From assembly GCF_030657335.1 (NCBI RefSeq), contig NZ_CP131039.1:124001-188000 (forward strand): a stretch of DNA of 64,000 nucleotides. Direction: 5' to 3'. This DNA comes from Croceibacterium aestuarii. Its GTDB lineage: Bacteria > Pseudomonadota > Alphaproteobacteria > Sphingomonadales > Sphingomonadaceae. The notes under the pieces are model-generated. The model did not search any database. It was not told the DNA's origin and saw nothing but the letters and a program-made list of their open reading frames with translations. A program made the translations under genes and the position numbers. This document shows, in pieces, positions 53,631 through 64,000 of this stretch; position 1 is the first letter of the stretch; each line of letters opens with the position of its first letter.

Positions 53631-54482
53631 TCAGGCGTGCACGACCGCCCTGTTCTCGAGCAGCACCGTGGCCGCTGCGGTGTTGGAAATCGGCACGTGA
53701 TAGTTGCTCGCGAGCTCGTGGACCGACCCGCGCAGTGCTCCGCGAGCGGCAATCCAGTTGAGGATCTCGACCCCTTGGCTGCCGGCCAGTTCGACGATGT
53801 CGAGCGTGTCGTGCTGCAGCAGCGCCTCGGGATCGGGCGCCAGGTTGCGCAGGCAGAACTTGTCGTAATCGGTGTTGATGTGTCCCGCACGGCCGCCTTC
53901 GAGCTGGTGCGACAGGCCGCCGGTGCCGAAGATCACGATCTTCTCGTCCGCGGCCCAGCTTTCGAGCGCGCGGCCGACTGCCTTGCCGAGCTCGAAGCAA
54001 CGCTTCGGGCTGGGCAGCGGGTGCTGGACGGTGTTGATCGCGATAGGTACCAGCTTGACCGGAAAATCGCCCTCGGGCCAGGCGAGTTCGAACGGCACCG
54101 CGACGGCATGGTCGACCGTCATCGTCTGGCAGGTGACCGGATCGAATTCGTCGTTCACGATCGATTCGATGATGTGCCACGAGAGCTCCGGATAGCCGGG
54201 CATCGGCCGGTCGAAGGCGATGCCCCACCCCTCGTCCTCGTGGCGGTACTCGGGCGCCGCGCCAACCGCGAAGGTGGGCATCTTGTCGAGGAAGAAATTG
54301 AGCCCGTGGTCGTTGTAGAACACCACTGCGACATCGGGCTTCTCGCGGCGCAGGAAGGCGTGGACGGGTTCGAAGCCATCGAAAAACGGCTTCCAGTACG
54401 GATCGCTCTGCAGCCCCTTGGCGATGGCGCCACCGATGCCGGGGACGTGGCTGGTGAAGATGCCGCCGACGACTTCGCTCAT
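53631..54482 (-). CDS. ligB: Class III extradiol dioxygenase beta subunit (LigB-type)
   Basis: A 283-residue catalytic subunit of the protocatechuate 4,5-dioxygenase family. Conserved: GGIFTSHVPGIGGA (His), NDHGLNFF (Asp-His, the iron and general base region), and IFGTGGLSHQLEG (His). The extended frame upstream is a shadow of ligA. It pairs with the alpha subunit encoded immediately upstream, overlapping by 4 bp. The substrate could be protocatechuate, gallate or a methylated relative. Confidence 0.88.
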   Translation of the reverse strand: MSEVVGGIFTSHVPGIGGAIAKGLQSDPYWKPFFDGFEPVHAFLRREKPDVAVVFYNDHGLNFFLDKMPTFAVGAAPEYRHEDEGWGIAFDRPMPGYPELSWHIIESIVNDEFDPVTCQTMTVDHAVAVPFELAWPEGDFPVKLVPIAINTVQHPLPSPKRCFELGKAVGRALESWAADEKIVIFGTGGLSHQLEGGRAGHINTDYDKFCLRNLAPDPEALLQHDTLDIVELAGSQGVEILNWIAARGALRGSVHELASNYHVPISNTAAATVLLENRAVVHA

Positions 54483-54889
54483 AGCGCCAACTCCTGCGCA
54501 TTGACGCGCCGCTCGGTCACCGCATGGCCCATCAGCGCGGCCTTGAAATCGTCGAGCGCCATTCCGGTCTGCAGCGCCCCGAGGTCCTGGACGTTGAGGC
54601 CGAAGATACCCGCCAGCTTGGCGAGGTAATAGACGTTGCCGCCCGCTGCGATCATCGCCGGCACGTCGCGCTCGCGCACGGCCCGCTTTTGCGTTTCGGT
54701 GAGATGGAAGCGGTCCATGTAGCCATCCTCGTCGGCGACGAAGGCATCGCGGTTGGCCTGCGTGTTGAAGGAAAAGCACATGGCGTTGAGGGCATAGCCG
54801 GCCTGCGCACTGGCACCGTCGAAAACCGGGGTGCCCGGAATGACCCGCTTTCCAGTGGCGTCCGACTGGGCAAAGGCAAGCATCGTCAT
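54479..54889 (-). CDS. ligA: Class III extradiol dioxygenase alpha subunit (LigA-type)
   Basis: A 136-residue small subunit. LigA features: GYALNAMCFSFNTQANRDAFVADEDGYMDRFHLTE and ALMGHAVTERRV near the end. The alpha subunit closes the active site of LigB. Fnr-like boxes lie 52-100 bp upstream. The two genes form an operon transcribed away from the membrane-protein pair at 55076. Confidence 0.85.
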   Translation of the reverse strand: MTMLAFAQSDATGKRVIPGTPVFDGASAQAGYALNAMCFSFNTQANRDAFVADEDGYMDRFHLTETQKRAVRERDVPAMIAAGGNVYYLAKLAGIFGLNVQDLGALQTGMALDDFKAALMGHAVTERRVNAQELAL

Positions 54890-55075: not shown

Positions 55076-55612
55076 ATGGGAGAGTGGTTGTTCGAACTGA
55101 CCGAAAGGCTGCGCGACACGCAGCTGGTCGAATTTTCGTTGTGGGTGACCGACTGGCCGCTCGCGATCTGGCTGCAGAGCCACTTCCTGGCTATCCCGGG
55201 ATTCCAGACGCTGCATATCCTGGCCATCGCCGTGCTGTTTTCCAGCGTGCTGATGCTCAACATGCGCATCTGGGGCTTCACCGGCAAGGACCAGGATCTC
55301 GACGCGGTTTATCGCCGCTACGTGCCGTGGAGCTGGTGGGCTGCGGCCTTCCTGATTGCCAGCGGGATCATCCTCCTGATCAGCGAGCCGGTGCGCAACA
55401 TGGTCAACGCGATCTTCTGGATGAAGATGACGATGCTCGTCGTCGCGATCGCTGCCAGCCTGGCGTTCCAGCGCGCGGTGCGGGTGCAGATGCGCGCCGG
55501 AGCGGCCAGCCTCGAGGCATCCGGCGCGCTCAAGGTCGGCGCAGTTGTCCTGACCTTGCTGTGGTGTGCGGTCATCATGGGTGGGCGCTGGATCGCCTAC
55601 GCGCCGGTTTAG
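55076..55612 (+). CDS. Four-helix membrane protein (DUF6644-like), first of a pair
   Basis: A 178-residue membrane protein with about four helices. The first 40 residues are soluble/amphipathic (LTERLRDTQLVEFSLWVTDWPL). AIWLQSHFLAIPGFQTLHILAIAVLFSSVLMLNMRIWGF has two His on adjacent helix faces, as seen in heme-b-binding membrane proteins. RYVPWSWWAAAFLIASGIILLISEP and further helices follow. It looks like DUF6644 (recollection). Its sister follows 13 bp later. The two possibly form one quinone- or heme-related unit; that is inference. Confidence 0.65.
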   Translation: MGEWLFELTERLRDTQLVEFSLWVTDWPLAIWLQSHFLAIPGFQTLHILAIAVLFSSVLMLNMRIWGFTGKDQDLDAVYRRYVPWSWWAAAFLIASGIILLISEPVRNMVNAIFWMKMTMLVVAIAASLAFQRAVRVQMRAGAASLEASGALKVGAVVLTLLWCAVIMGGRWIAYAPV

Positions 55613-55625
55613 GGGGTACACGAAC

Positions 55626-56135
55626 ATGACAAATCCAACCGTCTGGGAAAATATCCAGAACACGTCGCTCGGTGCGGGCATCGCCGGATCGGAATGGTGG
55701 TTTCCGACCATCGAGACGGTCCACGTCATCGCGCTCGTCACCGTTGTCGGGGTGATCGCGGTGATGGACCTGCGGCTGCTCGGCCTGACTTCGCGCGGTC
55801 GATCGGTCGTGGCAATGGAGCGCGACACCGTGCCGCTGGTCTGGGGCGCCTTCGCGGTCGCACTGTTCACCGGTTCGCTGCTGTTCGTCAGCAAGGCGGC
55901 GACCTATATGGCCAATCCCTTCTTCCTGTGGAAGATGGGGCTGATGGTGCTGGCCGGCATCAACATGGTGATCTTCCACCGGGTGATTTCCAAGGGTGTC
56001 GACGAATGGGGCCAGCCGGGCCACGCGATTCCCACTGCGGCCAAGGTTTCCGGCGTGCTCTCGCTGGTGCTGTGGATGCTCATTCCCCTGTGCGGCCGTA
56101 TCGTCGGCTTCACGCTGGGCGTCTATTACAGCTAG
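55626..56135 (+). CDS. Four-helix membrane protein (DUF6644-like), second of a pair
   Basis: A 169-residue paralogue of the previous gene: same order of helices, with GSEWWFPTIETVHVIALVTVVGVIAVMDLRLLGLTSRG matching the HFLAIPGFQTLHILAI ... MRIWGF part. FLWKMGLMVLAGINMVIFHRV holds an additional His. ATG 55626 chosen because the membrane part starts shortly after; the open frame reaches back to 55566 inside the previous gene. Function unknown. Co-transcribed with its neighbour. Confidence 0.65.
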   Translation: MTNPTVWENIQNTSLGAGIAGSEWWFPTIETVHVIALVTVVGVIAVMDLRLLGLTSRGRSVVAMERDTVPLVWGAFAVALFTGSLLFVSKAATYMANPFFLWKMGLMVLAGINMVIFHRVISKGVDEWGQPGHAIPTAAKVSGVLSLVLWMLIPLCGRIVGFTLGVYYS

Positions 56136-56280: not shown

Positions 56281-56324
56281 AAATTCTTGAGTCGCGGAAT
56301 TAATATTCCTAGTGTCAGGAATAT
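56281..56324. promoter_or_regulatory. Tandem TetR-type operator upstream of TonB receptor gene
   Basis: A perfect inverted repeat ATATTCCT-(6)-AGGAATAT spans 56303-56324. Directly upstream, a weaker copy AAATTCTT-(6)-CGGAATTA spans 56281-56302, so two 22-bp units lie head to tail. The same pattern occurs between the TetR gene and the MBL gene (62589-62610). Confidence 0.75.
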
Positions 56325-56347
56325 AAGGTTGCTTGGGAGAGGCATAC

Positions 56348-58813
56348 ATGTCCGCGAAATTTCTGTTCGGCGCGTCGCTCGGCGCGCTCTGCGCCTTTGC
56401 CGGTTGCACGCCTGCGCTGGCTCAGGATACGCCCCCGTCCGCCGAAGAGCAGGCAAGCGCCGACCAGGCCGGCATCGCCGATATCGTGGTTACCGCGCAG
56501 CGGGTCGAAGAAAACAGCCAGCGGGTACCCGTGGCGATCGACGTGATCGCCCCCGCCGAGCTGGTTCAGCAGAACGTGATCCGCGCCGAAGATCTCTCGC
56601 GCGTCACACCCTCGCTCTCCGCTTCGGGCGGCGGCGGTCCGACCACGGTGTTCTTCGTTCGCGGCGTGGGCAACGCCACGGTCAACGGATATTCGGATCC
56701 GGCGATCGCGTTCAATTACGACGGCGTCTACATCGGCCGTCCGACGTCCACCTCGGGCGTGTTCTACGATCTCGAGCGGGTCGAGGTGCTCAAGGGGCCG
56801 CAGGGAACGCTCTACGGCCGCAACGCTACAGCGGGCGCGATCAACGTCATTCCCAACCGACCGAAACTCGGCGAGACCTCGGGCAACTTCATGCTCGGCT
56901 ATGGCAACTACGACTGGCTCACCGGCCAGGCCGCGATCAATGTGCCGGTCGGACGCGATGTCGCAGTGCGGGCAGCGGCGAGCGTCTCGCGTCACGACGC
57001 GTTCCAGAGCGACGGCACCGGCAACCAGCGGGAATACGCGGGGCGCTTGCAGATATACGGCGAACCGACGGCCCAGCTGGATCTACGTCTCGCCTTCGAC
57101 TTTTCGCACCAGGGCGGCGCAGGAAGCAGCGGGTTTTACCTGGGCGCGGTGGACCCTACGTTCGGACCGACGGGATTTGCAGGCTATCAGTTCACGCCGT
57201 CGGGCTTCTCCGATCAGCAGGGGCTGCTCGACCCGGCCTCGAACGCCTACCTTGCGTCGCGCTTCATTGCGCAGGCCGGCCGCGCCGGCGCCGTGGTCGA
57301 CGGCGTGCCGTACAACCACAACAACTACTGGGGCGTCACCGCTGAACTCAACTACCAGACCGACGCAGGGACGTTGACGATCCAACCCGCCTATCGCGAG
57401 TCGCGGATCGATTACGCATTCAACGGGGTGTTCCGGCAGGGCGTCACCAAGGAGAAGGACACGCAGAGCAGCGTCGAAGCACGCTGGGCCGGCGACTTCG
57501 GCACGTCGGTCGACTACCTGCTGGGTGCGATCTACTTCGACGAGAGTATCAACGCGACCGCGCGCTACAACCAGCAGACGCTGTCCCCCTATCAGGACTT
57601 CTCGACGGGGACCGAGAGCTGGGCCGGCTTCGGCAAAGTCACATTTCACCCGACCGAAGCGCTTAGCCTAACCGCCGCGGGACGTTACACGTCGGACCGC
57701 AAGACCTTCGACGGAACCTCGAACGTCTACATCCTGTTCTGCGGCAATCCCGAACCGCCGCAGGATTTCTGCCCGACCCTGCCGTTCATTCCGCTCGCTT
57801 CGACCGAAGCCGAACTGCGCTCGTTCTACGCTTCGCAGGGCGTTCCGATCACGCCGGTCCCGCTTTTCGTGCTTCCGCCATTTGCCGGCGGCTCGCAGAC
57901 CGCGCCCTTCGTACTGCTTGCGCCGATCGCGATCGATTCCGGCCTCAAGAACGACAAGTTCACCTATCGGCTCGCCGCGCAGTACGATTTTTCGCCGCGT
58001 AACATGATCTATGCGAGTTACGAGACGGGCTACCACGCTGGCGGTTTCTCGTTCGCTCGCGGTGTCGAAACCTACGAACCGGAAACCATCAGGGCCTACA
58101 CGATCGGTTCGAAGAACCGCTTCCTCGACAACAGACTGCAGCTCAACGTCGAGGCGTTCCTGTGGAAGTACAAGAACCAGCAGTTCAGCCAGTTCGGCTA
58201 CGATCTCGGCAATCCGCCCTCGACCGTCTTCCTGACGCGCAACATCGGCGACAGCACGATCAAGGGCTTCGATGTCGACGTGGAGTTCCTGGCGACCGAG
58301 AACACGCTGATCTCGGCCAACGTCCAGCGCCTCGACACCAAGTACGACAGTTTCACCTATTTCGCCCCGAACCAGGGTCTGCCGCCCAACACGACCTGCC
58401 CCTTCTCCCCGACCACCCAGACGACCCCGGGGGGCACGATCGCCGTCTTCGAGATCGATTGTTCCGGCAACCCGGCGTTCAACTCGCCGAAGTGGTCCTT
58501 CAACCTCAGCGGCCAGCAGACCGTGCCGATCGGAAACGATTACAAGGCGGTGCTGGTGGCGGGCACGCGCTATCGCTCGTCGAGCTACTCGTCGGCCGAC
58601 TATCTGCCCTACCTGCAGGCCCAGGCGACTTACGTCAGCTATGCTTCGGTGACCTTCGGGCGCGAGGACGACAGCCTGTACCTCACGCTCTACGTCAACA
58701 ATATCGAGGATAACCGGCGGCTCGTCGGCGGAACCACGAATGCGGCGGGACTGATCGCAGCGTCGGCAGAGCAGCCGCGAACCTATGGTATACGGCTCGG
58801 CGGCAACTTCTGA
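56348..58813 (+). CDS. TonB-dependent outer membrane receptor
   Basis: An 821-residue receptor. Signal peptide to about residue 26 (LCAFAGCTPALAQ). Plug domain: IADIVVTAQRVEENSQRVPVAIDVIAPAELV, FFVRGVGNATVNGYSDPAIAFNYDGVYIGRP, VLKGPQGTLYGRNATAGAINVI. The C-terminal barrel ends in a Phe after RTYGIRLGGNF. It is a sphingomonad-type receptor for organic substrates rather than a classic siderophore receptor (judged from context). ATG 56348 is preceded by GGGAGAGG. A TetR operator lies 24 bp upstream. Confidence 0.92.
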   Translation: MSAKFLFGASLGALCAFAGCTPALAQDTPPSAEEQASADQAGIADIVVTAQRVEENSQRVPVAIDVIAPAELVQQNVIRAEDLSRVTPSLSASGGGGPTTVFFVRGVGNATVNGYSDPAIAFNYDGVYIGRPTSTSGVFYDLERVEVLKGPQGTLYGRNATAGAINVIPNRPKLGETSGNFMLGYGNYDWLTGQAAINVPVGRDVAVRAAASVSRHDAFQSDGTGNQREYAGRLQIYGEPTAQLDLRLAFDFSHQGGAGSSGFYLGAVDPTFGPTGFAGYQFTPSGFSDQQGLLDPASNAYLASRFIAQAGRAGAVVDGVPYNHNNYWGVTAELNYQTDAGTLTIQPAYRESRIDYAFNGVFRQGVTKEKDTQSSVEARWAGDFGTSVDYLLGAIYFDESINATARYNQQTLSPYQDFSTGTESWAGFGKVTFHPTEALSLTAAGRYTSDRKTFDGTSNVYILFCGNPEPPQDFCPTLPFIPLASTEAELRSFYASQGVPITPVPLFVLPPFAGGSQTAPFVLLAPIAIDSGLKNDKFTYRLAAQYDFSPRNMIYASYETGYHAGGFSFARGVETYEPETIRAYTIGSKNRFLDNRLQLNVEAFLWKYKNQQFSQFGYDLGNPPSTVFLTRNIGDSTIKGFDVDVEFLATENTLISANVQRLDTKYDSFTYFAPNQGLPPNTTCPFSPTTQTTPGGTIAVFEIDCSGNPAFNSPKWSFNLSGQQTVPIGNDYKAVLVAGTRYRSSSYSSADYLPYLQAQATYVSYASVTFGREDDSLYLTLYVNNIEDNRRLVGGTTNAAGLIAASAEQPRTYGIRLGGNF

Positions 58814-58841
58814 GCCGCGAATCGCCCGATGGAGTGAACAA

Positions 58842-59750
58842 ATGCCCGTTAGTGTGACCGACCTTCAATATGTCTCGCTCGCCGTGCCGGACCTGGCCGC
58901 GGAACGGGAATTCTTCGGCGAGAAGTGGGGGCTGATCGAGGTCGCGGAAGAAGACCGCAAGGTCTACTTCGCAGCCGAGGGAAGAGCGCATCCCTACGTC
59001 ATCGTTCTGCGCGAGGATGCCGAGCGCAAGACCGACCTGGTCGGGTTCTCGGCGGGTTCGCGCGACGAGGTTCTGGCAATCTTCGAGCAGGTGAAGGCGG
59101 CCGGCGCAAAAATTATTTCCGAGCCGGGCCCGGCGCGCGGCCCGGCGGGCGGCTTTGCCTTCCGCTTCTTCGATCCCGACGGGCGAGCCATGGAAGTCGT
59201 TTGCGAGAGCACCCCGCGCAGCTTCCGCCAGCTCGAACGCGGCGAGGCTATTCCGGTCGGCATCAGCCATGTCGTCTTCCACTCGCCCAACCACACCGCC
59301 CTGGCGGAATTCTTCGAGCAGGCGCTCGGCTTCCGTCTGTCCGACTGGATCGGCAACTTCATGGTCTTCCTGCGCTGCAACGCGGCGCATCACCGCGTCG
59401 CCATCCTTCCCGGGCCGCCGGCGCTCAATCACATCGCTTTCGACGTAAGCTCGGTCGACGAACTGATGCGCGGGCTCGCCCGCATGCACGAAAACGGCAT
59501 CAAGCTGAGCTGGGGGCCCGGGCGCCACACGGCGGGAAACAACACCTTCAGCTACTTCATCACGCCCAACGGCAACGCGGTCGAATACACCTCGGACCTC
59601 GAGGAAGTGGACGAGGAAACCTGGCAGCCGCAGACTTACGAGCCGGGCCCGCAGACGATCGATCAGTGGGGCACCGGGCGGATCATCACCGGCAATGTCC
59701 CCCATGCCGAGATGACGCCCGATAAGGGCCTATGGCAGGTTCCCGCCTGA
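58842..59750 (+). CDS. VOC-family extradiol dioxygenase-like protein
   Basis: A 302-residue protein with two VOC domains: residues 5-125 (LQYVSLAVPDLAAEREFFGEKWGL) and 140-265 (GISHVVFHSPNHTALAEFFEQALGF). Metal ligands are suggested as His in GISHVVFH, His in LNHIAFDV and Glu in NAVEYTSD. This is the type I extradiol dioxygenase (BphC/catechol 2,3-dioxygenase) architecture. It likely cleaves the catecholic product in this cluster. The ATG at 58842 is used; the frame is open farther upstream. Confidence 0.82.
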   Translation: MPVSVTDLQYVSLAVPDLAAEREFFGEKWGLIEVAEEDRKVYFAAEGRAHPYVIVLREDAERKTDLVGFSAGSRDEVLAIFEQVKAAGAKIISEPGPARGPAGGFAFRFFDPDGRAMEVVCESTPRSFRQLERGEAIPVGISHVVFHSPNHTALAEFFEQALGFRLSDWIGNFMVFLRCNAAHHRVAILPGPPALNHIAFDVSSVDELMRGLARMHENGIKLSWGPGRHTAGNNTFSYFITPNGNAVEYTSDLEEVDEETWQPQTYEPGPQTIDQWGTGRIITGNVPHAEMTPDKGLWQVPA

Positions 59751-59775
59751 CCGTGGCCAAGCGAAAGGACGGGGT

Positions 59776-60894
59776 ATGATCGGCAAGGCACTTGTCGTCG
59801 GCGGCGGAGTGGGCGGCATGAGCGCTGCACTCGCCATGACGCGCCGCGGCGTTGCCGTCGAACTGGTCGACGCCGACCCCGACTGGCGCGCCTACGGGGC
59901 AGGCATCAGCGTCACGGGGCTGTCGCTGCGCGCGTTCGACGATCTCGGCATCCTCGACGAGGTCCGCGACCGCGGATTCGTCGGCGGGGGTATTCGCCTG
60001 CGCTCGCCCGATGGCGGCGTGATCATGGAATCCCCGCCGATTCCCGCCGACGCGCCGCCGGTCGACCGCAGCGGCGGGATCATGCGCCCGGCACTTCACG
60101 ACATCATGTCGCACCGCGTTCGCGCCGAGGGCGTGCGCGTGACGCTGGGGGCGAAGATCTCGAGCTTCGAACAGGGCGGCGACGGGGTCACCGTCGAGTT
60201 CCCCGACGGCCGCCGCGAGACATACGACCTCGTCGTCGGTGCCGACGGCATCTTCTCGCAAATGCGGCAGGCGATCTTTCCCGATACGCCCAAGCCGCAA
60301 TTCACCGGCCAGGGATGCTGGCGCATCGTCGCCGACCGACCGGCCGAGGTCGATCGCGCCGAAATGTTTCTCGGCGGGCCGGTCAAGCTCGGTTTCAATC
60401 CGATTTCAGACGACAAGATGTACGCCTTCATCCTCGAACACGTGCCCGACAATCCGTGGTTCGAACCCGGCGAGCAACTCGATCACGTGGCACAGTTGCT
60501 GGCGCCGTTCGGCGGCTATGTCTCGCAAGTGCGAGCCAATCTCGGAGAGGATTCGCTCGTCAACTACCGCCCGCTCGAGTGGCTGCTGCTACCCGCGCCG
60601 TGGCATAGCGGCCGGGTCGTGCTGATCGGCGACGCCGTCCACGCCACGACGCCGCACATGGCCTCGGGCGCGGGGATGGCAGTCGAAGACGGTCTGGTGC
60701 TGGCTGAAGAACTCGAGCGCGACGCCAGTGTCGAAGGGGCCCTGGCTGCCTTCACCCAGCGCCGGTTCGAGCGCGCGCGGACGGTGGTCGAAAATTCGGT
60801 CCGCATCGGCGAGATCGAAATGTCGGGCGGCAATCAAATGGATGCGAACGCAATGCTCGGCGGCACGATGCAGAAGCTGCACGAGCCCTATTGA
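59776..60894 (+). CDS. FAD-dependent aromatic monooxygenase
   Basis: A 372-residue class A flavoprotein monooxygenase. FAD motifs: ALVVGGGVGGMSAALAMTRRGVAVELVDAD (GxGxxG), LVVGADGIFSQMR (DG) and GDAVHATTPHMASGAGMAVEDGLVLAEEL (GD). These enzymes hydroxylate phenols or hydroxybenzoates with NAD(P)H. Located between the VOC dioxygenase and an FAH-type hydrolase. Substrate not determinable. Begins 25 bp after the upstream gene. Confidence 0.87.
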   Translation: MIGKALVVGGGVGGMSAALAMTRRGVAVELVDADPDWRAYGAGISVTGLSLRAFDDLGILDEVRDRGFVGGGIRLRSPDGGVIMESPPIPADAPPVDRSGGIMRPALHDIMSHRVRAEGVRVTLGAKISSFEQGGDGVTVEFPDGRRETYDLVVGADGIFSQMRQAIFPDTPKPQFTGQGCWRIVADRPAEVDRAEMFLGGPVKLGFNPISDDKMYAFILEHVPDNPWFEPGEQLDHVAQLLAPFGGYVSQVRANLGEDSLVNYRPLEWLLLPAPWHSGRVVLIGDAVHATTPHMASGAGMAVEDGLVLAEELERDASVEGALAAFTQRRFERARTVVENSVRIGEIEMSGGNQMDANAMLGGTMQKLHEPY

Positions 60895-60905
60895 GAGGCA
60901 GCGAA

Positions 60906-61868
60906 ATGACCTACGGACTGGCCACGGTTTCGCTCGACGGAGCGACGCGCACGGTGCTCGTGCGCGGCGAGCGCTTCGTGCCCCTTCGCCATTGGGGCGA
61001 GGATCGGCCGATCGCCGAACTGCTGCGGGACTGGGATGCGGTGGTGGGACGACTCGGCGAATGGGCGGCTGACGAGGCTGCGTTTGCATCGGCCCACGAC
61101 CTCGCCTCCGCGCAGGCCGAGATGCCCTACCGGCCGGGCCAGGTCTTCTGCACCGGCGCCAATTACAAGAAGCATGTGGTTGGCCTGATCATGGGCGATC
61201 CCTCGATGCGGACGCAGGAGCAGGAGGAGGTCGATCCGGCCGAGCTCAGGGCGCGGGTCGAGAAGATGATGGACGAGCGCGCCAAGGCGCCCCCCTTCGT
61301 CTTCCTGAAGCTACCGGCCTGCGCGATCGGTCCGCGCGACGACGTGGTGCTGCCCTTCGATGTCGAAAAGCCCGACTGGGAGCTCGAACTCGGCGTCGTC
61401 ATCGGTCGGCGCGCCCACCGGGTGAGCGAGGCCGAGGCGATGAATTTCGTCGCCGGATACGCTGTCGTAAACGACGTTACCGCGCGCGAACTCATCTTCC
61501 GCCGCGATGGATCGGCAATCGGCGCCGATTGGCTCTCCGGCAAGAGCTTCCCGACTTTCCTCCCGTTCGGGCCGATGGTGGTGCCGAAGGAGTGCATCGT
61601 CGATCCCTACGACCTGTCGATGAAGCTATCGGTCAACGGCAAAGTCTATCAGGACGAGACGACGGCCGACATGATGATCTCGATCGAGCGCCAGATCGCT
61701 TATCTCTCGAGCCGCGTCGTGCTCGAGCCCGGCGACCTGATCTGCACCGGTTCGCCTTACGGCAACGGCTCGGCGTTCGGGGTCTTCCTCAAGCCCGGCG
61801 ACGTGATGGAGGCGACGATTGCGGGGCTCGGCACGCAGCGCAATACTTGCGTCGCGGAAGCCGTCTAG
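60906..61868 (+). CDS. Fumarylacetoacetate hydrolase (FAH) superfamily hydrolase
   Basis: A 320-residue FAH-fold enzyme. Core motifs: VFCTGANYKKHVVGL, PFDVEKPDWELELGVVIGRRAHRVSEAEAMNFVAGYAVVNDVTARELIFRRDG and LICTGSPYGNGS. Metal-binding Glu/Asp residues lie in ELELGVVIG. Substrates in this superfamily are acylpyruvates or 2-hydroxy-dienoates from ring cleavage. The start at 60906 lies 11 bp after the monooxygenase; an overlapping in-frame ATG is at 60891. Confidence 0.86.
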   Translation: MTYGLATVSLDGATRTVLVRGERFVPLRHWGEDRPIAELLRDWDAVVGRLGEWAADEAAFASAHDLASAQAEMPYRPGQVFCTGANYKKHVVGLIMGDPSMRTQEQEEVDPAELRARVEKMMDERAKAPPFVFLKLPACAIGPRDDVVLPFDVEKPDWELELGVVIGRRAHRVSEAEAMNFVAGYAVVNDVTARELIFRRDGSAIGADWLSGKSFPTFLPFGPMVVPKECIVDPYDLSMKLSVNGKVYQDETTADMMISIERQIAYLSSRVVLEPGDLICTGSPYGNGSAFGVFLKPGDVMEATIAGLGTQRNTCVAEAV

Positions 61869-62533
61869 CGCTTGCGCAGTCCGTCGGTAATCAGCCGGAC
61901 CACGAAATCCTCGTAGCGCTTGCCCAGCTCCTCGATATCCGCGTCGGGAGGGACGAGAAGCTCGATGAGCGGCGCTCCGGACACGAAGAAATCGCTGATG
62001 CCGACCACCGCCAAATACATGAACAGCGGGTCGAAATCGCGCAATTGCCCCTCGGCGTCGCTGTCCAGAATGCGCCGATAGTTGGCCACGGGCTGGCGGT
62101 TCCACTCGCGCATCTTGTCGCGCACTTCGGGCACTGTGGAGGAGTCGAGCTCCTCGATCATCAGCCGCTGCATGTGCTTGGCCGAGCGGGTGAAGCGGAA
62201 CGTCCCGCGGATCATGTGTTCGAGAAGCTGGAGAGGATCGCCCGGGGGAAGCGGCCGGTTGCCTTCGTCGCCGATCGTCTTGGCGACTTCGAAAAGGAGG
62301 TTTTCGCGATTGCCGAAGTAGTAGCGCACCAAGGCGGGATCGGCATTCGCGCGGCGGGCGATGGCGGTGCTCGTCACCTGGGACGGCGGCAATTCCTGCA
62401 AAAGCTCACGCGCAGCCTCGATAAGCGCGTCGCGGCCGACGCCGCTCTCGGACGCCGTCGGCCGCCCCTTGCCGCGCGATGCGGTCTTCCGTCCGCTTTT
62501 TGGTACCCCCACTGGCTTTCCGCCCTTTGTCAT
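61865..62533 (-). CDS. TetR-family transcriptional regulator
   Basis: A 222-residue regulator. HTH at residues 45-65 (LPPSQVTSTAIARRANADPALVRYYFGNRENLLFEV); a basic 25-residue N-terminal tail precedes it. The C-terminal domain is a typical TetR ligand-binding bundle. Divergent from the MBL gene with an operator-like repeat in between. Matches the operator pair at the TonB receptor gene, so it may be a local repressor for this catabolic set. Inducer unknown. Confidence 0.9.
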   Translation of the reverse strand: MTKGGKPVGVPKSGRKTASRGKGRPTASESGVGRDALIEAARELLQELPPSQVTSTAIARRANADPALVRYYFGNRENLLFEVAKTIGDEGNRPLPPGDPLQLLEHMIRGTFRFTRSAKHMQRLMIEELDSSTVPEVRDKMREWNRQPVANYRRILDSDAEGQLRDFDPLFMYLAVVGISDFFVSGAPLIELLVPPDADIEELGKRYEDFVVRLITDGLRKR

Positions 62534-62588
62534 TCGCCGAGAGTGCTACGCGGTGCGCATAACATCGACAAGAATGTCGTCGGCAAAA

Positions 62589-62610
62589 ATATTCTTGTGG
62601 CTAGGAATAA
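62589..62610. promoter_or_regulatory. TetR operator-like repeat between tetR and the MBL gene
   Basis: ATATTCTT-(6)-AGGAATAA: the same arms and spacing as the perfect repeat at 56303-56324, with two mismatches. It lies 56 bp from the tetR start and 37 bp from the MBL start. A second inverted repeat CGACA-AGAA-TGTCG sits at 62566-62579. Confidence 0.7.
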
Positions 62611-62646
62611 AGTCGATAGGGTCGTGACGAGAGGAGAGACGCAACC

Positions 62647-63630
62647 ATGGCAAATTGGCCATTCCGGCAGGGTGTGCATGAACTTGCCGACGGCATTTAC
62701 GGATATATCCAGCCCGACGGGACCTGGGGCTGGTCGAACGCCGGGCTGGTGACGTCCGAGGGCGAGACGCTGCTGATCGACACCTTGATGAGCGTCCCGC
62801 TGACCCGCGCCATGCTCGCGGACTTCGCACGGGTCCCGGGGGGCGCGTCGATCGACATGGTGATGAACACCCATGCCAACCCCGACCATTTCTTCGGCAA
62901 CGGAGTGGTCGAAGGCGCCGAGATCATTTCCACCGCCAAGACGCGCGCGGAAATGGAGGGGTTCAATCCCCAGGCGCTGGCCAATCTTTCGGCGAACTGG
63001 GAAAGCATGGGCGAAGCGGGAGAATTCCTGTTCGAAACCATGGGCCGCTATTTCGACTTCAGCGGCGTCGACGAGCTCGCCCTGCCCACCCGCACATTCG
63101 ACGCGACAATGACGCTGCAGGTCGGCGAGAAAACCGTCGAACTGACAGACCTCGGTCCCGCCCATACCGAATCCGACACGATCGCCTGGGTGAAGGAAGA
63201 CCGCACGGTCTTTACCGGCGATCTGCTTTTCAACGAAGGTCATCCGATCGTCTGGGCCGGACCGTTCGACAACTGGATTGCCGCCTGCGAGCACATCATT
63301 GCGCTCGGACCCGAGGTGGTAGTGCCGGGACATGGACCGATCTGCGATGTCGAGGGGGTGCGCACCATGAAGGGCTATTTCGAGCATCTGCGCAGCGAAG
63401 CGCGCGGCCGCTTCGAGGCAGGCATGGACTGGCGCGCGGCAGCGCGGGACATTCCGATCAAGGAATATGCGCACTGGACCGATCCGGAGCGCGTCGTCGC
63501 CAACGTCTATTCGCTCTACAAGCAGTGGGATCCCGGTCTCGACCACGCCCCGCCGCCGGTGCTGTTCGCCGAGATGAACCGCTACCGCAAGGAACACCAC
63601 GAGAAGCACGGATGCGGGCATGCCCATTGA
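62647..63630 (+). CDS. Metallo-beta-lactamase-fold hydrolase with His-rich C-terminus
   Basis: A 327-residue MBL-fold protein. The first metal motif is NTHANPDHFFGNG: HxNxDH instead of HxHxDH. The second His is in GPAHTESDT, then TGDLLF (Asp) and VVPGHGPICD (His). The end KEHHEKHGCGHAH is rich in metal-binding residues. Context suggests action on a thioester, lactone or other catabolic intermediate. The gene overlaps the next one by 11 bp. ATG 62647 has GAGGAGAG 11 bp before it. Confidence 0.85.
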   Translation: MANWPFRQGVHELADGIYGYIQPDGTWGWSNAGLVTSEGETLLIDTLMSVPLTRAMLADFARVPGGASIDMVMNTHANPDHFFGNGVVEGAEIISTAKTRAEMEGFNPQALANLSANWESMGEAGEFLFETMGRYFDFSGVDELALPTRTFDATMTLQVGEKTVELTDLGPAHTESDTIAWVKEDRTVFTGDLLFNEGHPIVWAGPFDNWIAACEHIIALGPEVVVPGHGPICDVEGVRTMKGYFEHLRSEARGRFEAGMDWRAAARDIPIKEYAHWTDPERVVANVYSLYKQWDPGLDHAPPPVLFAEMNRYRKEHHEKHGCGHAH

Positions 63631-64000
63631 TCTGAACGCCACCCACGACCCCAAGAGACGAAGCTGGGTGGAGAGCGCCAACGCTGCCGATACCGACTTC
63701 CCGATCCAGAACCTGCCATTCGGCGTGTTCGACGACGGACGGGGGCCCCGCGGCGGCGTAGCGCTGGGCGACAGCATCATCGACCTCAAGGCCCTGCTCG
63801 ATACCGGAGAGATCGCCGGTGCGGCGGCCGAGGCGGCGGCAGGCGATACCCTGCTGCCCTTGTTCGCATGTTCGCGCAGCGAAGTTTCGGCCTTGCGCGC
63901 GCGGTTATCGGATCTCTACCGCGCCGACGGCGCCAGCGATCGAACCCATGCGCATGACGCGCTCGTTCCGATGCAGAACGCGCGTCTCTTGCTGCCGGCC
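63620..64000 (+). CDS. Fumarylacetoacetase, N-terminal part (runs off window)
   Basis: The first 127 residues: SWVESANAADTDFPIQNLPFGVFDDGRGPRGGVALGDSIIDLKALLDTG is the typical N-terminal domain of FAH proper (PIQNLPFGVF), unlike the FAH-like hydrolase at 60906, which lacks it. It would hydrolyse fumarylacetoacetate or a close homologue, the last step in homogentisate degradation. The start lies inside the MBL gene, a sign of coupling. A partner homogentisate dioxygenase, if any, is outside. Confidence 0.85.
   Translation, partial: MPIDLNATHDPKRRSWVESANAADTDFPIQNLPFGVFDDGRGPRGGVALGDSIIDLKALLDTGEIAGAAAEAAAGDTLLPLFACSRSEVSALRARLSDLYRADGASDRTHAHDALVPMQNARLLLPA

Follow-up and report, generated by a model that had tools for sequence, protein, structure and literature searches.

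A conserved palindrome as the candidate operator of a local TetR-family repressor of a TonB receptor and aromatic catabolism gene cluster in Croceibacterium aestuarii

The palindrome ATATTCYT-N6-AGGAATAW is, with a probability of roughly 0.9, the operator of a local, autoregulated TetR repressor that would co-control TonB-dependent uptake and the neighboring catabolic units of a gene cluster in Croceibacterium aestuarii. Its sites are confined to this cluster and are conserved together with the adjoining tetR gene; thus, the genes for uptake and for breakdown are very probably co-induced via TetR. Binding by TetR, repression rather than activation, the existence of an inducer and the transcript starts are what we infer from the sequence.

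Genes and sites of the cluster

The window referred to below is the whole stretch of 64,000 nucleotides that was analyzed. Coordinates are those of the window, except for those marked C1, which are genome coordinates, and those marked L, which belong to individual loci.

56281..56302, + strand: candidate operator O1 of the TonB promoter, AAATTCTTGAGTCGCGGAATTA (pattern match, weight matrix, tandem in orthologous clusters)
56287-56292, + strand: -35-like TTGAGT inside O1
56303..56324, + strand: candidate operator O2 of the TonB promoter, ATATTCCTAGTGTCAGGAATAT, with perfect arms (pattern match, weight matrix)
56310-56315, + strand: -10-like TAGTGT inside O2, 17 bp past TTGAGT
56348..58813, + strand: TonB-dependent receptor with Plug and TonB barrel domains (Pfam), which opens operon 1
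58842..59750, + strand: VOC two-domain extradiol-type dioxygenase (nearest solved structure 3b59; homologous to BphC)
59776..60894, + strand: FAD-dependent aromatic monooxygenase of the PRK06847 subfamily
60906..61868, + strand: fumarylacetoacetate-hydrolase-family protein FAH1, last gene of operon 1, converging on tetR
61865..62533, - strand: predicted TetR-family repressor (Pfam TetR_N and TetR_C_29, AlphaFold2 model, orthologues)
62589..62610, + strand: candidate operator in the tetR/MBL divergon, ATATTCTTGTGGCTAGGAATAA (pattern match, conserved in the divergons of relatives)
62595-62600, + strand: -35-like TTGTGG of the MBL promoter, inside the divergon operator
62617..62622, + strand: putative -10 TAGGGT of the MBL operon, 16 bp past TTGTGG (conserved columns)
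62647..63630, + strand: MBL-fold metallohydrolase, which opens operon 2
63620..64000, + strand, running off the window: two-domain fumarylacetoacetase-like FAH2
Past FAH2, outside the window: ACMSD-like amidohydrolase, MFS transporter and the two features below
C1:191456-191477, 3.5 kb outside the window: fourth candidate operator, before the gene of a 106-aa exported protein
L014:5520-5840 (C1:191519-191839): the 106-aa exported protein, which closes the cluster

As assigned from gene spacing and strand, operon 1 consists of the TonB receptor, VOC, FAD monooxygenase and FAH1 genes, with gaps of 11-28 bp, and operon 2, which is divergent from tetR, of the MBL, FAH2, amidohydrolase and MFS genes, while the small exported protein forms a third unit. 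This protein has no match in NCBIfam. Homologues are found in L030, L075, L080, L081, L096, and L098, and an operator repeatedly precedes them.

Confinement of the palindrome to the cluster

The initial annotation described a perfect copy and a weaker tandem copy before the TonB gene, as well as a further copy in the tetR-MBL divergon, and all of these were recovered. The exact copy at 56303-56324 matches on both strands and is abutted by the weaker copy at 56281-56302, which has 3 mismatches, and a second exact copy lies at 62589-62610 (+). The pattern had also been placed at both ends of the catabolic set, a description that has to be corrected, since 62589-62610 lies between two operons and not at an end, and a third promoter carries a site at C1:191456. 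The 64-kb window holds no further match at 3 or fewer mismatches, and its 5 strand-matches compare with 0.07 expected from shuffled sequence. A weight matrix built from the sites of relatives only, with the window's own sites left out, gave the three sites 30.6, 30.1, and 23.2 bits, whereas nothing else in the 64 kb scored above 6.8.

Patterns were then run against the complete genome of 3,347,658 bp (G000, a single contig). Frequent occurrence elsewhere had been named as an observation against the regulon, and no such site was found outside the cluster. The exact pattern occurs only as the 56303 and 62589 copies. The family consensus WWATTCY-N8-RGAATWW, which is the palindrome reduced to the columns conserved in relatives, is present at 4 places in 3.35 Mb (C1:180281, C1:180303, C1:186589, and C1:191456, the last extending to C1:191477), all of them within the 11.2 kb cluster, and its reversed control pattern gave 0 matches. 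The looser W-ATTC-N10-GAAT-W retrieved 7 places, that is, the four cluster sites and 3 others. When the 3-mismatch matches to the initial pattern from the rest of the genome were scored, none exceeded 15.1 bits, versus 23-31 for the four cluster sites, and they were taken as background.

A regulon of uptake, dioxygenase, monooxygenase, FAH, MBL, and fumarylacetoacetase genes, as first proposed, is supported by this genome-wide confinement, by phylogenetic footprinting and by co-occurrence with TetR (see below). The candidate regulon is in fact larger than that proposal, as it also includes the amidohydrolase, the MFS transporter, and the small exported protein. Two neighbors immediately upstream of the TonB gene were considered and rejected as members, namely LigAB-like dioxygenase subunits (53631-54889) and a DUF6644 membrane-protein pair (55076-56135): their promoters have no site and they lie outside the conserved block. 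Homologues of DUF6644 adjoin the amidohydrolase in one relative, G200 (L075:11723-12766).

Conservation in relatives

Orthologous clusters are present in about 15 other sphingomonad genomes from at least 7 genera of the family. Across the syntenic clusters, the TonB receptors are 52-81% and the tetR products 46-83% identical. All tetR-MBL divergons examined have a site (about 17 syntenic loci, including two close-duplicate pairs), as do the upstream regions of all complete TonB genes examined in the syntenic clusters; the relatives share descent, and such counts are not independent events. The tandem pair of the TonB promoter occurs in 10 orthologous clusters, with a pitch of 22 bp in 9 and of 24 bp in 1. 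Three relatives from one other genus, G080, G206, and G450, retain neither the tandem spacing nor the -35 within the operator. The cluster of G200 is split across two contigs (L074 and L075), with operators kept on each part, and one of its sites reaches the start codon of the small exported-protein gene. In G073, where this gene and the cluster are on separate contigs, the gene still begins with a perfect operator (L096).

Other arrangements were also observed among these genomes. G003 carries an extra operator before an operon that ends in a small exported-protein gene (L098:4565-5656) and whose Rieske-type oxygenase is putative, read from sequence; this may represent growth of the regulon in a sister species. 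In several relatives (L025, L027, L074, L076, L085, and L088), though not in the window, the TonB and VOC genes have a further operator between them, which would be consistent with operator turnover inside the operon. In L074 of G200, remnants of the MBL start and of the amidohydrolase end adjoin tetR, and an intact MBL-FAH2-amidohydrolase set is on L075, which looks like duplication of the cluster followed by partial loss. Finally, a partly homologous cluster lies on a plasmid of the lichen isolate Polymorphobacter megasporae, and a full homologous cluster on a Novosphingobium plasmid.

The regulator

The product of tetR has the two domains of its family, a helix-turn-helix domain and an all-helical ligand domain, as it matches PF00440 with 33.8 bits (cut-off 24) and PF17938 with 42.8 bits (cut-off 26.2), and its AlphaFold2 model (pLDDT 82) is helical almost throughout. 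A palindrome in the regulator's own divergent promoter, also a mark of the family, is found at 62589-62610 and is kept in all orthologous divergons. The closest fold to the model is 2qtq (Saro_1072), which is alike in overall structure and helix-turn-helix but only about 22% identical in the structural alignment, and which is itself described only as a predicted regulator. Matches to curated regulators such as BetI are far below the cut-off. The recognition helix comprises residues 67-73 (ALVRYYF). Among the 7 TetR_N hits in the genome, the helix DPALVRYYF is present in this TetR only, and nothing similar was found in the others.

Presence of the motif was compared with presence of this regulator in 30 genomes. 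The relaxed palindrome occurs in 13 of the 14 TetR-positive genomes versus 3 of the 16 TetR-negative ones (Fisher p = 6e-5), with 34 versus 4 sites in total, a comparison that is partly one of cluster present versus cluster absent. All 4 stray sites of the TetR-negative genomes are inside predicted reading frames. No good site was found beside the amidohydrolase homologues of TetR-negative genomes (L078, L082-L084), nor within 20 kb of a TetR paralogue, L029, with a changed helix (HLTLFKYYF).

It might be proposed that a regulator encoded at another locus recognizes the palindrome and that the adjoining TetR controls something else, given that the length of a motif does not by itself name a protein family and that TetR and site are paired from sequence. 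This is improbable, though, because the motif tracks the tetR gene across genomes, every tetR divergon has a site, and the recognition helices of the genome's other TetR_N proteins differ. Likewise, no site lies outside the cluster, as is expected of a regulator that is dedicated and local. The adjoining TetR is thus the preferred candidate for binding the palindrome.

Operators and promoter-like hexamers

In the 14 divergons that were aligned, a TAGGGT-like block is conserved at operator positions 29-34, 16 bp past the TTGnnn hexamer of the MBL promoters. Read towards the downstream gene, 12 of 14 MBL operators and 9 of 10 first TonB operators have TTG at positions 7-9; in these 14 and 10 sites, it was never seen in the mirrored arm. 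In the TonB promoters, a TAGnnT lies inside the second operator, 17 bp past the -35-like TTG hexamer, and the column of its last T is not accounted for by the palindrome. The Y of the pattern as first written, that is, the departure from CT to TT, is best explained by a -35 element lying within the operator. As the TTG in O1 and the TAGnnT in O2 are 17 bp apart, TetR probably occludes the promoter hexamers directly. At the third promoter, there is a possible half-degenerate tandem partner of the site, AAATTCTTGCAGACGCAGGGGT (L014:5435). Although its TTG and spacing are like those of the TonB tandem, it scores -19 bits by weight matrix, and we do not count it among the operators.

The oriented TTG in most sites and the TAGnnT at 17 bp in the second TonB copy might also be taken to mean that the repeat is only a conserved -35/-10 promoter, with no operator. 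Nevertheless, this is very unlikely and was rejected on the TTG-less palindromes of relatives: the divergon sites of G080 and G206 and the sites upstream of VOC all keep the palindrome while TTG is absent. In particular, the retention of the MBL palindrome in the more distant G080 and G206 argues that it is an operator and not merely a promoter. In the alignment of the relatives' sites, moreover, the core columns ATTC/GAAT have 1.8-2.0 bits in both arms, including the arm that has no promoter role (flanking columns mostly have 0-0.5), and the G200 site reaches a start codon. As for chance similarity between AT-rich palindromes, the rest of the genome does contain 3-mismatch matches at the background rate, but this explanation can be dismissed on the excess over shuffled sequence, the weight-matrix scores, and the location of the genome's four relaxed sites in one 11 kb stretch, and was already refuted by conservation across genomes.

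Proposed regulation and comparison with known systems

On the operator reading, regulation could proceed as follows. Without inducer, TetR dimers would cover the hexamers of three promoters, one for each transcription unit. At the promoter of the TonB-VOC-FAD monooxygenase-FAH1 operon, two dimers would sit side by side, one on the -35 and the other on the -10, while a single dimer would cover the -35 of the MBL-FAH2-amidohydrolase-MFS operon; the small exported-protein unit would be covered as well. The dimer in the divergon would also be beside tetR, leading to autoregulation. An aromatic substrate or early intermediate entering via the TonB receptor would then bind TetR, and all units would be released together. 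We lean, by a modest measure, towards a more specific proposal, in which the 22-bp tandem pitch fits a dimer exactly to each hexamer, so that operator and core promoter are fused and co-evolve in about 10 species, within a regulon for an undescribed aromatic pathway (perhaps for a plant or lichen polyphenol) that includes an unclassified small exported protein.

The principle is known from DdvR of Sphingobium sp. SYK-6, a local repressor of a TonB receptor and adjoining catabolic genes (ddvT-ligXa) that is relieved by the substrate, DDVA (PMC6874591). Both cases concern a sphingomonad in which a TonB receptor for an aromatic compound, here a predicted one, and neighboring catabolic genes are under a local repressor, here a proposed one, and the cluster described here likewise has the same operator at the receptor gene and at catabolic promoters. 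However, DdvR is a MarR-type regulator associated with DDVA, LigXa, LigZ, and LigY, whereas the present regulator belongs to the TetR family and accompanies other enzymes, so that it would be DdvR-like in function only. Candidate tandem operators are present here, and none are reported for DdvR in the available text of that study (PMC6874591). A related role was reported for PheR of Sphingobium sp. SHPJ-2, which represses an aromatic operon until relieved by the substrate and for which transcriptomics showed effects on TonB/TBDR genes (PMC13273656). It shares with the present case the link between an aromatic operon repressor and TonB genes, but it is of the IclR family and recognizes a GCAACG motif.

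A literature search on the pathway found no paper describing the gene set of the cluster. Catabolism by the fde naringenin and isoflavone clusters proceeds through a FAD monooxygenase and then a ring-cleavage dioxygenase of the glyoxalase (VOC) fold (PMC11069340). The FAD monooxygenase and VOC pair found here is similar by enzyme type alone and recalls flavonoid A-ring degradation, which is a lead only.

Implications

The TetR cluster is very probably a new instance of local co-repression of uptake and catabolism, ordinary as regulatory biology, and provides a sharply defined, testable candidate regulon for an uncharacterized sphingomonad catabolic cluster. The specificity of the operator (4 places in 3.35 Mb) allows further members to be found, and it already picks out the third promoter with its small exported protein and the Rieske-type oxygenase operon of a relative. 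The TetR/operator pair is also a candidate biosensor, and its inducer would reveal the substrate of the pathway.
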